64,000 bases of DNA, from assembly GCF_018143015.1 (NCBI RefSeq), contig NC_054752.1, positions 6,807,216 through 6,871,215 on the forward strand. Direction: 5' to 3'. Position numbers and translations under genes: made by a program. Of this stretch, positions 1 to 56,602 are shown piece after piece. Numbering within the stretch: the stretch's first letter is position 1; every line of letters begins with the position of its first letter. The notes below the pieces were generated by a model that did no database searches, was not told where the DNA came from, and saw only the letters and a list, made by a program, of their open reading frames with translations. The stretch comes from Lytechinus variegatus. Its lineage: Eukaryota; Echinodermata; Echinoidea; Temnopleuroida; Toxopneustidae.

Positions 1-3000
1 TTAATATAAAATATCACAAAAAATCATCTGAAGTGACAAAGACAGATGCACAACTAATTAATTATTTAATTCACAAAACCCCTTAGAATAAGACAAATAA
101 CATGCTATGCTAGCAAAGATAGCACTTTAATATAACCTAACCTCTTATTCAAAACAATAGAAAATACATTGTTAACCAACTTTATAAACTATTGTTCAAA
201 ACTAACAGAATTGACAAAATAAGATAAATATCTTACCTATAATTCTGACCCAAAAATGAAGAAGCCTCTCTGCCTGCCCCATGAATGGGGTGCAGTGCAG
301 GAGTGAATTGGAGCAAAATCCTCTCTCCCTTTTATGCAGTTATCACTCTCCATTCACAGATGCTAAGCCTTGACCATAATTATCTACGTCATACAAGCTT
401 ATAGCTCTGGAATGTGATGTTTTGACCCAAAGACCATTCAGCATCACTCTTACCCAGAAAGAGTGTGAATCATATTCCTTGAAAAGCATGAAGATTGTTA
501 AATATTTCTACTTTCTACTACTTCCTGTGCACTTCCTGTGAAGGCATCTATTACTTACAGACAAATGATTAAGAGTAATGAAAATATATGAATTTTCAAT
601 AAACAGTTCATTTTGACCTGTTACATACTCCCCTACTTAATTGAGTGACGTCCCGGCACTCACTATACCAAATTATTACAAATTAAAGTCCTACTTTAGA
701 TAACACTACCCGGAGATACTTGTTCCCAGTTACAGAACAAGTCAATTTACAATTAATCATGGCCCTAAATATATAAAGCAAGTTATCTCCCGATACAGAA
801 TATAAAAAATCTCGGCAATAACACGGTATTGGCGAACCCGCACCACTAATACGAAGTTCCTGGTCTCGTGACGAGAATAAACACAGAAAACATATCTAGT
901 GCAAAAACTCAACTGTTTCAGTTTTCAAGTACACTCCTTATTATGTAATACTAGTATCATGTTGAGGTTCCTAGCATTAAACATTCCAAGTGCTTCCTAA
1001 CTGATCCTAACAGCTCCAGAGTTTATATCAACCAATTGTTTAGTTATCGACATAGACCTTCACAATCCATGTATCTCAACGAATAACAGACCATTATATA
1101 ATTATAGCCAGTAAATCAATCACTACAATGTCGTCCTTAAACCTCCCAAAATATACCTACTTATACTTTAAGCTGATCCAAATTGTTAAAGAATTACAAG
1201 ACAATAAACAAATAACAACAATTACCAGATGTTCCCCCAAATCTTAGCAATTTCCAATGGAACAATGGTTCACCAATATAACATATTGAAAAATCTCATC
1301 ACTTTTGACTAATTCTCTCAACTACCAATGCGTCCTTTCCGGCCTCGAAGGTTAACAGAAAAACAAAGGTAAAGAGAAAAGCCTTACTGCCCCAATAGTC
1401 ACTCCAGTATCCCTCTAATGCAATCCCGGTCTCAGATTGAGGTTCTCGAAATTAACATTGATACTTTATCCTGACTAAACCTAGCAGTACTCCTAGCCAA
1501 ATCCCAGTTACAAATCAGAAAGATCAGCATATTACAATATGGTAACCATTATAACACACAGACACATAAAAGTAAAACACTTTCATCAACACGTGGGCTC
1601 CCCTTCTTTTTCCAAAGTAGCCCCTAAAACTATCAAATACACATTCTGGATCAAACAATTACCATTAATTCACGCCATAGCTTAATTAAACCGAAGATCC
1701 AAAACAAAAATTAAAAAGTTAACAAACTTCAAGTATCAGACAAAGAAACGCCTCAACTATTCATTAGTTAATCATGTTTGCCAAACCCAGAGCTTACTCT
1801 GCACATACTGTACTCCCTCCTATCAACATATAAAATACTGGTGTCTCTGGCCTCCTACACCCCAATGTGTGGTTCCCATCCAACCAGCCAAAATTACTTA
1901 AGAAAGGGGGCATGGACTGTTCCAAAACACAGCATTACCATGACAACACAAAATTAACCTTCAACAGTACTCAGTATTCCCTTGACCAAAGCCATTTGAT
2001 CTGAAAACTTACAGGGTATCTCATAAAATACCTTCCCACTAGTATAAATCCCTATCAAATACATTGTAGCCTCATATTACTTTCAAACAAACTACATTTT
2101 GGCTACAACATTCACACTATGCACACACACAAATACATCTTAAAGCTACGTTCATATTTACAAATTCAAGATGTCCACGGATGAGCTCCTCAGATTGTCA
2201 GGGTTTGAACTTGGTTGTATCCAACGACGAACATCGATCCTGCTGACAACGCCACTTTGTAACATGCGGAAACTGATGTAGAAAGATGACACACGACACC
2301 ATTCCTTGTGTTTCGGTTCGTTTAATATCGATGAGTCGTTATATACAAATTCCAAAATTTCCTAGTACAGGAACGAAAGATAAAGAAATAAAAAAACCTG
2401 CAAAAACCAATGAGAATAAAACAATTAACTAGAATGATGATAATGTTTGAAAAAATGCACAAAATAGAAATATACACATATTTGCTTGTGACTCTAAGAT
2501 ATAACATTCATCAATATGACGTCAAGTAGACTCGTAATAATAAATGATAAACATGTTGTCTATATCCATTCATTAAAACTTATTCAATATTGCCTGAATT
2601 CAACTCATCTAATCACAAATTCAGTTCCTCCATCGTTATGGATAACTCTTCCAACAAATAAATGTGAAATTTACCAAACAACAATTTAAATATGCCAACA
2701 AATTAGCATTGAAATACAGTGGTTTATAAATGATAACCACTCACCCTGGCAATCTGGCCTAGAGGACCATATTTCCTCTCGTGATAGCCTCACCCGCTAC
2801 ACGAATGTCATGTCAAATACCTTTAAAAGGAAAGTAACAATTATTACACATAGTAAGCAATTATTGTAACCCTTTACTCTGAAACACAGAACTGAAACAT
2901 TGCATTAACAATTCAATAACCAAAATCTTCAACTCTAAAGATCATTCTACTAAATCGTTTTACTTTACGATTAGAACCGAACACATTTTATGTTTATAAC

Positions 3001-3659
3001 TACATACTACAATCAAGTATACAAGTACAAGTAATTAATATAAAATATCACAAAAAATCATCTGAAGTGACAAAGACAGATGCACAACTAATTAATTATT
3101 TAATTCACAAAACCCCTTAGAATAAGACAAATAACATGCTATGCTAGCAAAGATAGCACTTTAATATAACCTAACCTCTTATTCAAAACAATAGAAAATA
3201 CATTGTTAACCAACTTTATAAACTATTGTTCAAAACTAACAGAATTGACAAAATAAGATAAATATCTTACCTATAATTCTGACCCAAAAATGAAGAAGCC
3301 TCTCTGCCTGCCCCATGAATGGGGTGCAGTGCAGGAGTGAATTGGAGCAAAATCCTCTCTCCCTTTTATGCAGTTATCACTCTCCATTCACAGATGCTAA
3401 GCCTTGACCATAATTATCTACTTCATACAAGCTTATAGCTCTGGAATGTGATGTTTTGACCCAAAGACCATTCAGCATCACTCTATCCCAGAAAGAGTGT
3501 GAATCATATTTCTTGAAAAGCATGAAGATTGTTAAATATTTCTACTTTCTACTACTTCCTGTGCACTTCCTGTGAAGGCATCTATTACTTACAGACGAAT
3601 GATTAAGAGTAATGAAAATATATGAATTTTCAATAAACAGTTCATTTTGACCTGTTACA
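1..3659 (-). mobile_element. Non-autonomous LTR retrotransposon, long-LTR copy (left end outside window)
   Basis: Layout on the + strand is an incomplete LTR (1-625), a non-coding internal region (626-2257) and a complete LTR (2258-3659, 1402 bp). The LTR starts TGTAAC and ends GTTACA. Orientation is minus: reading that strand, a TGG-starting primer-binding-like site (2238-2256, TGGCGTTGTCAGCAGGATC) follows the LTR, and a purine tract (AGTAGGGGAGTA, about 627-639) precedes the far LTR. No gag or pol reading frame is visible in about 1.6 kb, so it must have relied on proteins from elsewhere. Positions 1-625 and 3035-3659 differ at only about five places, so the insertion is young. It lies upstream of exon 3 of ARF gene 1, presumably in intron 2, and antisense to it. 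Ty3-like membership is a guess from the purine tract and the short duplication of the sister copy. Confidence 0.8.
2258..3659 (-). repeat. 1402-bp LTR with two intron-like blocks
   Basis: On the minus strand the LTR carries a TATA-like CATAAAAGGG (about 3361-3370). Two blocks absent from the 592-bp LTRs at 22401-22992 and 24630-25221 follow. Block A (3270 down to 2821, 450 bp) starts GTAAGA and ends TTTTAAAG. Block B (2744 down to 2398, 347 bp) starts GTGAGT and ends TTTTTGCAG. Removing block A leaves AATTATAG joined to GTATTTGAC; the short LTR has AATTATCG joined to GTATTTGAC. Removing block B leaves GCCAGG joined to a T-rich run, as in the short LTR, although sequence beyond that join is more diverged. 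This fits two introns in a 5' leader (R-U5). Confidence 0.65.
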
Positions 3660-4109
3660 CATGTAGCACCAACCAAAACCTTGACTACTCAAATCTGGCT
3701 AGGTTCCTCAGCCATAATGCAACATTCTAAGCCATGTAGTCTCTGAATATAAGCCCACTTGACGCATTAATTAACTTCTCAATACATTCATATTTTATAT
3801 AGTTACCAATAAGCATATCAATTACTTTTCCTTTCAAAATGTTAAAGATCCTCTATTCAAATGAAATGATATGCTAAGTTATTCTTTGTATTGTTCATAG
3901 TTATATTTTAAGACCATACATGTATTTCAAACACACAGTTTGCTCCCCTTTATTTGATACATTTGCCTGATTTCTGGCCCTGACAGCTCCATATTTCATT
4001 CTTTTTCAGGCAGGCTTCTATATTGTACTGGCCACATTGGGCTTTATCTACATGGGACCCCAAACCCTCTTTACCTGCATCTCCACCTTTGCCTTCCTCA
4101 TTTAAGGAC

Positions 4110-4415: not shown

Positions 4416-4454
4416 GATATGCTGGTTATTTCCTATTTTCATTTTTTTGTGTAG

Positions 4455-17186: not shown

Positions 17187-26425
<9,239 letters not shown>

Positions 26426-40297: not shown

Positions 40298-51541
<11,244 letters not shown>

Positions 51542-53236: not shown

Positions 53237-56200
53237 ATGTAAATAACCCACGAGCAAAAGAGCAAGTAGACTACATGAAAACTGATTTGGATTTATGCGA
53301 CCCTTGGAGAGTTAGATTTCCAGATAAAAGATATTATACATGGCGACAATCCACCCCCTTTAAACAGAGTAGATTAGACTTCTTTTTGATTTCCTCTGAA
53401 CTCCTTTCACTTGTTCAGAAAGTTGGCATTTTCTCCGGTTATCGCACAGATCATTCTTTAGTTTGTCTGAGTCTCAACTTGAATAAGATTAAAAGAGGTC
53501 CTGGTTTTTGGAAATTCAACAATTCACTATTGAAAAATGATGACTTTGTTTCTAATATTAAAAAAGTAATAAAAGATACGATTGTGTTTTATGCGAAAGA
53601 CGAAGTAAATTTTGATGCAAATAATCGAATAGTAGGTGAGTGTGAATTCACTATAAACGATCAGTTATTTTTCGAAACTTTAATGATGATAATACGGGGA
53701 GAAGCAATATCACATGCTTCCTTTGTAAAAAAGCAAAATATAAACAGAGAAAAAGACTTAGAAAAGAAAATTGAAGAGCTGGAAAGAAAACTGGTGATTC
53801 ACGATGATAAGATATCTATTTTGGATCAAATTGAAAAAGCTAAATCAGAACTAGAAACATTCCGATTAAAAACTAATGAAGGGGTTGCGATTCGATCTCG
53901 GATTAAGTGGATGGAGTATGGTGAAAAGCCTTCTAAATTCTTTTTAAATTGAGAAAAACAAAATTACATTAATAAAGAAATACGTCAGTTATCCACTGAA
54001 AATGGTGATAATTTAGAAATGCAAAGTGACATAATCAATGAAATATTTAACTTTTACTCTAATCTTTATGCGGAAAAAGAAACCAACGCTAGCAACTTGG
54101 AATTATTGTTAAATTTTCCTGGCATTCCAAAGTTGTCCCCTCAAATGTCGTCCTTATTGGAGGGTCCTTTAAATGTTGATGAGGTCTTTTCTGTTTTAAA
54201 GCTCATGAAAAATAGTAAATCGCCCGGTCAGGATGGTTTTACAGTAGAATTTTATCGTTATTTTTGGGAAGACGTTAAACTTTTTTTGGTAAGATCATTG
54301 AATTATGCGTACTTTTCAGGACACATGTCTAATTCACAAAATATGGGAATAATTACTTTAATCCCGAAAGGAAATAAACCCAGACACTTGTTACGAAATT
54401 GGCGACCTATCTCCCTATTAAATGTTGTCTATAAAATAGCATCCAGTTGTATAGCAAACAGACTCAAAGGTGTTCTGTCTTTTTTAATACATCAAAACCA
54501 AACAGGGTTTTTGAATGGTCGCTTCATAGGAGAAAACATTCGTTTATTGTATGACACATTACTTTACAGTGAATTACATGATAATTTATAGCTGGCATGC
54601 TTCTCGTTGTTGATTTTGAAAAAGCTTTCGATTCTGTATCACATAATTTTCTTTTCAATGTTCTGGATTTTTTTCGCTTTGGTCCTTCGATTAAAAGGTG
54701 GATAAAACTTTTCTATACAGACGCAACCTCTTGTGTGTCAGTTAACGGGCATTGTACAAATAGATTTAATATAGGAAGAGGGTGTCGTCAAGGGGATCCT
54801 TTATCTCCCTATCTTTTTTTGTTAGTTAGTGAGGTTCTTGGTATTTTAATTCGACACTCAGACAAACTGGAGGGAATGCATATTAATGGGAAAACACTTA
54901 AAGTGTTACAATATGCAGATGATACCCTTTTGACACTCAATGGTTCAGAACAGGATTTAAAATGTGCCCTTGATACACTTGATGAATTTGAAAAAATATC
55001 CAACCTTAAAATTAACATAACTAAAACCCAGGTGATATGGATAGGGAAGAATAGAACTTTTAAAAAAGAGATTTTACACGAGTACAAACTGAACTGGATT
55101 TCGGAAGGGTATTTTAGGTACCTAGGTATAGACTTTTCTGTTGAACTATCAAAAATGGTTGATTACAATTATCAGGAAAAGTTTAAAGAAATAAAACGTC
55201 AGATGGCGGTATGGCGAAAAAGATCTTTGACTCCCTTGGGGCGGGTAACCATTGTTAAATCTATATTAATACCGAAATTAAATTACTTGTTTTTATCTTT
55301 TCCAGAACCAAAAATAGAAATTATGAATGATATTCACCGATGTTTTTACGAATTTATATGGGAAGGCAAACCTGATAAAATAAGTAGAAAACAAATGTGT
55401 CAATCGTATAGTGAGGGTGGTGTTAGGATGACTGATATTTTTATCCATTCCAAGTCATTAAAAATTTCATGGATAAGAAGGTTTATTTCTTGTTCTGAAA
55501 ATTTTACTTTTCATATGTTTCAGTCATTTTTGCCTACAGCACATACATCTTTTCAATTATTCATGGGGGCTGAGCATTATAAATCACTTGCCATATCAAT
55601 AAATAACCCATTTTGGGCACAGGTATTGTTTGCCTTTTCAGATCTTACCCGCCTTCTTGTTGATGACGTTGCATGTCAAGCCCTTTGGAATAATCCAAAA
55701 ATTAAAATGAATGATAATGTAATATTTTTCAGGTCTTGGTGTGTTAATGGGGTGCGTTTTGTTAATGATATTTTAGGAACAGATGGAAAATTTCTCTCAT
55801 ATTTTGATTTTCAACGCAAATACAATATACAAGTAAATTTTCTTCAATATTATGGCCTATGCAACGCCATTAGATACAGTTTCAATAAACATGTAATACC
55901 AAAATCTATGGAACCTATTATTCCAGAAGCACTGCTTTTGATAATAAAATTTAAAAAAGGTTGTGCTCACATTTACAATATTTTTTTAAAGTATAAGTTG
56001 AAAGATTGCAAAAGTCTCATAAAATGGAAACAGATGTTTGACTTTGACAACACTATATGGAGGTTTTACTATCAGTTACCCTTTTATTCTACTGCAGATG
56101 TCAACATGAGGTGGTTTCAGTTCAAAATAATGAATAGAATTATTTATATGAAAGATGCTTTATTGCGATTTAAATTAGTTAAGATAACTTATGCACTTTT

Positions 56201-56602
56201 TGTAATAATAATGAAGAAACTATTATGCATATGTTTTGCTTTTGTGCCCACACAAACGAAATATGGTCTCAACTCGAAATCTGGTTTTCTCGTAACAATT
56301 TGCACATCAAAATTTTAAATCAGAATAAATTATTCGGTTTTTACGGAAACAGTAATGGAGCTCTTAATTGTATTTTTATAATAGTTAGAAAACAAATTTT
56401 TGCAGCAAAATGCAAACACTGTCTTCCAGTTTTCGACCATATTTTGTCTGAAATAAAATCTTATTATAGTATGGAAAAGTATATATATAAAACAAATCTG
56501 AAAGAGAAGAAATTCATAAAAAGGTGGTCATCTTTCATTTTATTACATTGAATCTCTCAGATAACATTCTAAAACACACGCACGCACGCAAGCACATATA
56601 TG

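Follow-up and report, generated by a model that had tools for sequence, protein, structure and literature searches.

Two blocks that separate the long from the short long terminal repeats (LTRs) of a retrotransposon family in the sea urchin Lytechinus variegatus are best explained as introns of the transcribed leader, which would often be spliced out before reverse transcription to give new copies with two intronless LTRs; we place the probability of this explanation at about 0.92. The family is represented by two elements in the stretch analyzed, which is 64,000 nucleotides long (C13:6807216-6871215 of a genome, G000, of 869.6 Mb in 33 contigs) and is called the window: a long element at G000:C13:6806444-6810874, which extends 772 bp past the left window edge, and a short element at window positions 22401-25221, whose two LTRs differ at 1 of 592 positions.

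The 1402-bp LTR of the long element was aligned end to end with the two 592-bp LTRs (Table 1). The main difference was two blocks, at LTR positions 390-839 (450 bp) and 916-1262 (347 bp); apart from these, the T-rich stretch that follows block 2 was diverged and contained a 16-base gap, and there were scattered substitutions and one-base indels at a few sites. The initial annotation, made from the window alone, had placed the LTRs and both blocks and had described the LTRs as alike except for two GT...AG blocks on the element strand; all coordinates held on realignment, and the likeness was confirmed apart from these small differences. Intervals of 250-600 bp were taken from the long LTR at all starts in positions 300-999; GT...AG placement was possible for 0.69% of them and GTRAG...AG placement for 0.05%, giving chances for both blocks, if taken as independent, of about 5e-5 and 3e-7. 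A TATA-like box, CATAAAAG, begins 100 bp before block 1, in agreement with the annotation, which had put such a box upstream of both blocks. If this motif and the ATTAAA past block 2 are a TATA box and a poly(A) signal, both introns lie inside the repeat region (R) of the LTR; they are probably wholly within R, between the two motifs.

In retroviral replication, R and the adjoining unique region (U5) of both new LTRs derive from the 5′ end of the RNA. The long LTR would have two spliceosomal introns in a leader that begins at a putative transcription start, and transcripts would be incompletely spliced in vivo. Unspliced and spliced RNAs would both retain the primer binding site, the polypurine tract and R, and both kinds would depend on proteins from other sources for packaging and reverse transcription. 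Since R-U5 of both new LTRs would be copied from the 5′ leader, both LTRs of the copy would be intronless if the leader was spliced, and a half-spliced leader would leave the copy with a single intron. Such copying of spliced leaders would have been repeated and independent.

Copy search and LTR classes

To find copies, the genome was searched with four queries, namely the long and short LTRs, the first join and exon 2; only the best candidates were scored, so that all copy counts are lower bounds. Classes were assigned by segment mapping and reading of joins, in one genome. At least 76 LTR copies were found in four discrete classes: both introns were present in 40 and both absent from 31, 3 had intron 2 alone and 2 had intron 1 alone, at least one intron being missing in 36 of 76. 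The LTRs with only intron 2 are at C2:25406, where the partner LTR has neither intron, at C8:30401, with CATG on both sides, and at C7:15454, whose 3′ LTR was not found in the one 1251-base stretch searched. Those with only intron 1 are the two LTRs of a single C10 element, the 3′ LTR of which is interrupted by an insertion of ~10 kb.

Two discrete length classes with GT-AG junctions and a shared phylogeny had been anticipated. The lengths were discrete and the block edges constant as expected, but there were four classes rather than two, and the intron-lacking ones were polyphyletic; four classes with several origins strengthen the case for splicing. A continuum of lengths, shifting block edges and separate transposon insertions had been named as contrary outcomes and were looked for; none was found among the copies listed. 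The matches listed numbered 40 for intron 1 and 43 for intron 2, every one inside a family LTR and none outside, from block searches in which 40 of 46 and 40 of 45 candidates, respectively, were scored and weak or distant copies could be missed. A separate transposon origin of the blocks, by insertion into the LTR, was rejected because all listed block matches sit in family LTRs.

Putative exon-intron boundaries

Without exception, the 34 intron-1-lacking LTRs have exon 1 joined directly to GTATTTGACA, the first bases past the acceptor. Exon 1 ends in ATTATAG, as predicted from the long copy in the window, in 25 of the 34. Eight of the other nine ends are donor-side variants that are also present in copies containing intron 1. 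ATTCTAG occurs in three intron-1-lacking LTRs and at the donors of the long copies C19:5707, C19:5710 and C2:38003; ATTATATAG is found in three further intron-1-lacking LTRs and in the long copies C19:16443 and C19:16478; and ATTATCG, in the two LTRs of the window short element, is shared with the donors of C3:70528 and C3:70533, which have both introns, and C10:15339, which has kept intron 1 and lost intron 2. All three of the latter donors read ATCG/GTAAGA (the slash marks the boundary). The first join had been annotated as matching the short LTR to within one base; the single mismatch (ATCG versus ATAG) is real, but it is an inherited variant present at these three donors rather than noise. 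The markers near the junctions that are common to long and short copies are ATCG, ATTCTAG and ATATAG at the end of exon 1 and CCAAG at the end of exon 2.

At the second join, the exon end CCAGG meets a G/T run, and splicing with the commonest acceptor, TTGCAG/GT (33 of 43), predicts CCAGGG. The 33 joins read CCAGGG (15), more G (8), CCAGG (4), CCAAGG (3, in C10) and other changes (3). The CCAAGG of C10 is exactly what splicing predicts from long copies of the C18 type (CCAAG/GTGAGT).

Among retained copies, the intron 1 donor (n = 40) was GT in 37, GC in 2 and CT in 1; intron 2 (n = 43) had the donor GTGAGT in 42 and the acceptor AG in all 43. As in spliceosomal introns, GT...AG ends are kept between copies on what is probably the transcribed strand, and removal was exact in the genomic joins of 34 (intron 1) and 33 (intron 2) of the 76 LTRs, with variation in the G/T run at join 2. 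RNA folding predicted a hairpin over the intron 1 donor (window 3235-3290; z = -2.74, 2 of 200 shuffles folding equally well), which is a hint only, and gave z = -0.23 for the donor 2 region (84 of 200 shuffles) and -1.11 and +1.46 for the acceptor regions. The predicted donor 1 hairpin might hold splicing down.

Paired LTRs

Intron class agreed in 19 of 21 LTR pairs, and in 20 of 22 when the C10 element was added. The pairs left out were those of the C7:7068-7091 element, which has no exon 1 beside one LTR and is split by an insertion, and the 3′ LTR of C2:69153. Two of the 21 pairs are tandem-array LTRs (C10:650805/656399 and C19:16495666/16493410, the C19 array also having a long LTR), and in the pair C2:38001/38004 internal sequence is found on the outer side as well. 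The agreement supports the proposal, made in the initial annotation, that a leader spliced before reverse transcription makes both LTRs short. Intron loss from both LTRs of one copy had there been called unusual; it is instead the outcome expected when a spliced leader is reverse transcribed in the retroviral manner, and 20 of 22 pairs conform to it.

The two unlike pairs are hybrids. At C2:25406, the element at C2:25405878-25409125 has intron 2 in its 5′ LTR only, with LTR exons alike at 608 of 609 positions and a target duplication of ATGT. In the element at C19:16436057-16444786, the 5′ LTR is short and the 3′ LTR long, with 11 mismatches in 590 and the duplication TCAC; a rearranged second copy of this locus, with identical flanks, lies at C19:16477192-16496130. 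Each hybrid could be explained either by strand transfer from one packaged RNA to another or by subsequent gene conversion.

Tandem arrays of family LTRs and internal regions were seen at C10:650417-656606, C19:16477192-16496130 and C2:38000125-38004680, as expected from LTR-LTR recombination. Three pairs of insertions have common flanks (C4:17288287 and C4:20224117; C5:23343938 and C5:28489202; C4:33018958 and C4:38092382, the last in the right flank) and are segmental duplications carrying the element.

Phylogenetic analysis

An unrooted maximum-likelihood tree was built from the exon sequence of 71 LTRs, excluding the bases beside the joins; of the 5 copies omitted from the 76, 4 had no exon 1 or exon 3 nearby and 1 had a short exon 1 piece. 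On this tree, the state of intron 1 must have changed 13 times and that of intron 2 14 times. Constraint to a single clade was rejected by the approximately unbiased (AU) test for LTRs lacking both introns (p-AU = 1.6e-9), intron 1 (3.1e-44) and intron 2 (3.4e-5). Under a loss-only model, the best tree needed at least 14 losses of each intron; when only well-supported branches were retained, the minimum was at least 4 of each from all exons, and 6 for intron 1 and 7 for intron 2 from exon 1 alone. The short element in the window grouped with the two long LTRs of C3:70528-70533 at 99/96 and 100/90.

A second tree was built from the 20 internal regions longer than 900 bp, out of 38 matches, only 4 of the 20 coming from elements read as long. 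It shows repeated class change as well as recombination, and because of the recombination it was not used for loss counts. As copies recombine, the near-junction markers are a stronger argument than the tree: importing a ready-made join from another short copy would need a switch within a few bases of the splice point every time. From these sequences, we conclude that intron loss was most probably repeated and independent and that the intron-lacking classes have several origins.

Evaluation of alternatives

Several observations weigh against splicing as the explanation. One intron-1-lacking LTR, C8:30401, has an exon end that matches no long donor, the G run at join 2 varies, and 2 of 22 LTR pairs are unlike in class. 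The C19 short copies are without the TA found after the acceptor in the nearest long copies, and so are not derived from exactly those copies. Short direct repeats (AGGTA, CAGG) flank both blocks, and the breakpoints slide over 6 and 4 positions; any single join alone could therefore be a repeat-mediated deletion. On the internal-region tree, elements without either intron are distributed as they would be by chance (7 changes, against a mean of 6.0 after shuffling). This tree also disagrees with the LTR tree, the internal region of the short C1:96093 being sister to that of the long C5:25391 at 100/99; the conflict indicates that recombination between copies occurs and may inflate the tree-based loss counts.

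The conflict between the trees (as at C1:96093 and C5:25391) and the two unlike pairs would fit one or a few ancient losses, after which the short LTR spread between lineages through template switching or gene conversion. Such spread is possible in part, but as the general account it is very unlikely: it is strained by the lineage-specific bases at most ~5 nt from the join (ATCG, ATTCTAG, ATATAG, CCAAG), which would demand switches a few nucleotides from the splice point in each lineage, and the single-intron classes would require at least two further events. Recurrent deletion between the short repeats, in DNA or during reverse transcription, would draw on repeats that are present at the block edges and would account for the sliding breakpoints. 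With the commonest acceptor, however, deletion of block 2 between repeats should leave CCAGG ahead of the T run, a form read in 4 of 33 joins as against 15 of 33 for the CCAGGG of splicing (the homopolymer run being slippery). Such deletion also leaves unexplained why the recurrent losses are confined to two intervals that are each GT-AG and share a strand; we consider it highly improbable.

The exon tree is unrooted and its most diverged copy, C3:55390, is short, as would be the case if the short LTR were ancestral and the blocks had been gained as intron-generating insertions or captured host introns. That would need repeated gain of homologous blocks at the same two sites in many scattered lineages; all listed block matches are in family LTRs, and the probability of this reading is lower again. 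A single ancient gain of the blocks before the losses is possible and compatible with leader introns. Copying of spliced transcripts by machinery of the long interspersed nuclear element (LINE) type, as in processed pseudogenes, would also take introns out exactly, but the intronless elements that were read have paired LTRs (TGTAACA/TGTTACA) together with a primer site and a polypurine tract, and target duplications of 4 bp flank 8 of the 10; we regard the likelihood of such copying as negligible.

Given leader introns, the family may serve as a natural retrotransposition reporter, a proposal for which the odds seem slightly short of even. Each insertion would store the splicing state of its RNA (both introns, first only, second only or none), the C2 and C19 hybrids would represent strand transfer between differently spliced RNAs packaged together, and the introns would persist because splicing is kept incomplete, perhaps by the donor 1 hairpin.

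Element structure

The copies in the window have LTRs of the form TGTAACA...TGTTACA, a primer site starting with AAGTGGCG or AGTGGCG, the polypurine tract AAGTAGGGGAGTA and 4-bp target duplications (CATG for the long element, ATTT for the short). Throughout the family, paired direct LTRs have TG...CA ends (TGTAACA...TGTTACA in most ends read), with the primer site 3′ of the 5′ LTR and the polypurine tract before the 3′ LTR. Of 40 insertions, among which three pairs are segmental duplicates with common flanks, 34 had target duplications of a fixed 4 bp; these duplications flank 8 of the 10 elements without either intron and also the element with intron 1 alone. The interior, of ~1.6 kb, has no frame longer than 71 codons in the long copy, and 38 genome matches to it were listed from 37 candidates. 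Judged by its LTR ends, primer site, polypurine tract, target duplications and non-coding interior, the family is a non-autonomous LTR retrotransposon. Terminal-repeat retrotransposons in miniature (TRIMs) are defined by short LTRs of about 100-500 bp. The non-coding interior agrees with that type, but the size does not, the LTRs being 592 or 1402 bp and the elements ~2.8 and 4.4 kb.

The primer site occurs in the versions TGGCGTTGTCAGCAGG, TGGCGTTGTCGGCAGG, TGGCGTAGTCGGCAGG and TGGCGCTGCGAGCAGG (at window 2238-2257 and 26 further genomic sites); it resembles tRNA-Ser, and we presume that the versions perhaps correspond to different serine tRNAs. A search for an autonomous partner with the LTR end plus primer site gave 27 places, all 27 adjoining family sequence, though not every flank was read for coding sequence. 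Coordinates are collected in Table 1.

Table 1. Coordinates of the long and short elements and their parts (window positions)
Feature	Position	Strand	Basis or remarks
Long 5′ LTR of intron-containing element, 1402 bp	2258-3659	-	TGTAACA...TGTTACA ends; 4-bp target duplication CATG
LTR exon 1 (promoter region and first exon)	3271-3659	-	Alignment and segment mapping
TATA-like box CATAAAAG	3363-3370	-	Begins 100 bp upstream of intron 1; exact in 60 of 72 LTR copies; putative function
Intron 1, 450 bp, GTAAGA...TTTTAAAG	2821-3270	-	Absent, with join at these edges, in 34 of 76 LTR copies
LTR exon 2, 76 bp	2745-2820	-	Segment mapping and join reading
Intron 2, 347 bp, GTGAGT...TTTTTGCAG	2398-2744	-	Absent in 33 of 76 LTR copies
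LTR exon 3 (rest of R, and U5)	2258-2397	-	Alignment; putative R/U5 division
ATTAAA, putative poly(A) signal	2321-2326	-	71 bp past end of intron 2; in 67 of 72 LTR copies
Primer binding site region AAGTGGCGTTGTCAGCAGGA	2238-2257	-	Sequence reading
Internal region, long element	626-2257	-	Longest stop-to-stop frame 71 codons (tested 659-2257); polypurine tract 626-645
3′ LTR of long element, part in window	1-625	-	Rest left of window to G000:C13:6806444; full LTR has both introns
Target site duplication CATG, long element, right side	3660-3663	.	Left side outside window
Short 5′ LTR, 592 bp, without either intron	24630-25221	-	Joins 24832/24833, 24756/24757
Internal region, short element	22993-24629	-	Segment mapping
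Short 3′ LTR, 592 bp, without either intron	22401-22992	-	Joins 22603/22604, 22527/22528
Target site duplication, short element, right side	25222-25225	.	ATTT on element strand
Target site duplication, short element, left side	22397-22400	.	ATTT on element strand

Comparison with described systems

Retroviruses such as HTLV-1 have a splice donor inside R. The family described here shares with them a donor in the LTR, but its LTR accommodates two complete introns, donors and acceptors included.

In the 1985 Ty experiment, an artificial intron was missing from the transposed copy, which established an RNA intermediate (as described in PMC12786077). Intron loss on transposition is common to both cases; the Ty intron was engineered, whereas here there are two natural introns in the LTR, and both new ends are changed. 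Functional introns are described in BARE1, copia, Ogre and EVADE, with coexisting spliced and unspliced RNA (PMC3735527, PMC12786077). Those introns make subgenomic RNA (Gag-only in BARE1 and EVADE); here, by contrast, 36 of 76 LTR copies are without at least one intron. The BARE authors argued that retrotransposons must avoid packaging or copying spliced RNA and reported that DNA copies of spliced RNA could not be amplified (PMC3735527). Copying of spliced RNA seems frequent in the present family (36 of 76), in contrast with that argument, and the LTR itself is the record. The ta-TRIM elements of taeniids are similarly small, non-autonomous animal LTR elements in which cis-splicing was sometimes detected, with no intronless genomic copies or LTR-confined introns described in the available part of that report (PMC4558846). 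Fully spliced HIV-1 RNA is packaged and reverse transcribed (PMC1868081); spliced RNA would likewise be copied here, but into integrated, inherited copies and repeatedly across lineages.

Among the matches listed in open-licence full text, a set outside which most subscription-journal papers fall, there was no natural family whose introns lie entirely within the LTR and whose integrated copies have repeatedly lost one or both of them exactly. That LTR elements can have introns, and that spliced retroviral RNA can be reverse transcribed, is known already; repeated natural loss of LTR introns is what the present family would add. The family opens to sequence alone the questions of how frequently spliced RNA is packaged, whether intronless daughters transpose again and how frequently strands are transferred between RNA molecules. 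One family can yield discrete LTR length classes, which annotation might split into separate families.

Neighboring sequences

An Arf-family coding sequence (PF00025) lies at window 25697-26425, and sequence related to it recurs near 4.4-5.6 kb and near 22.1 kb. Duplicated gene copies around the elements are suggested by 159-nt stretches that are repeated at 4436, 22118 and 50228. Two reverse transcriptase frames (RVT_1), split at ~54591, occupy 54019-56318, and a large inverted array of 272-274 nt units, with arms of up to 514 nt and 98% complementarity, extends over 43126-48117.

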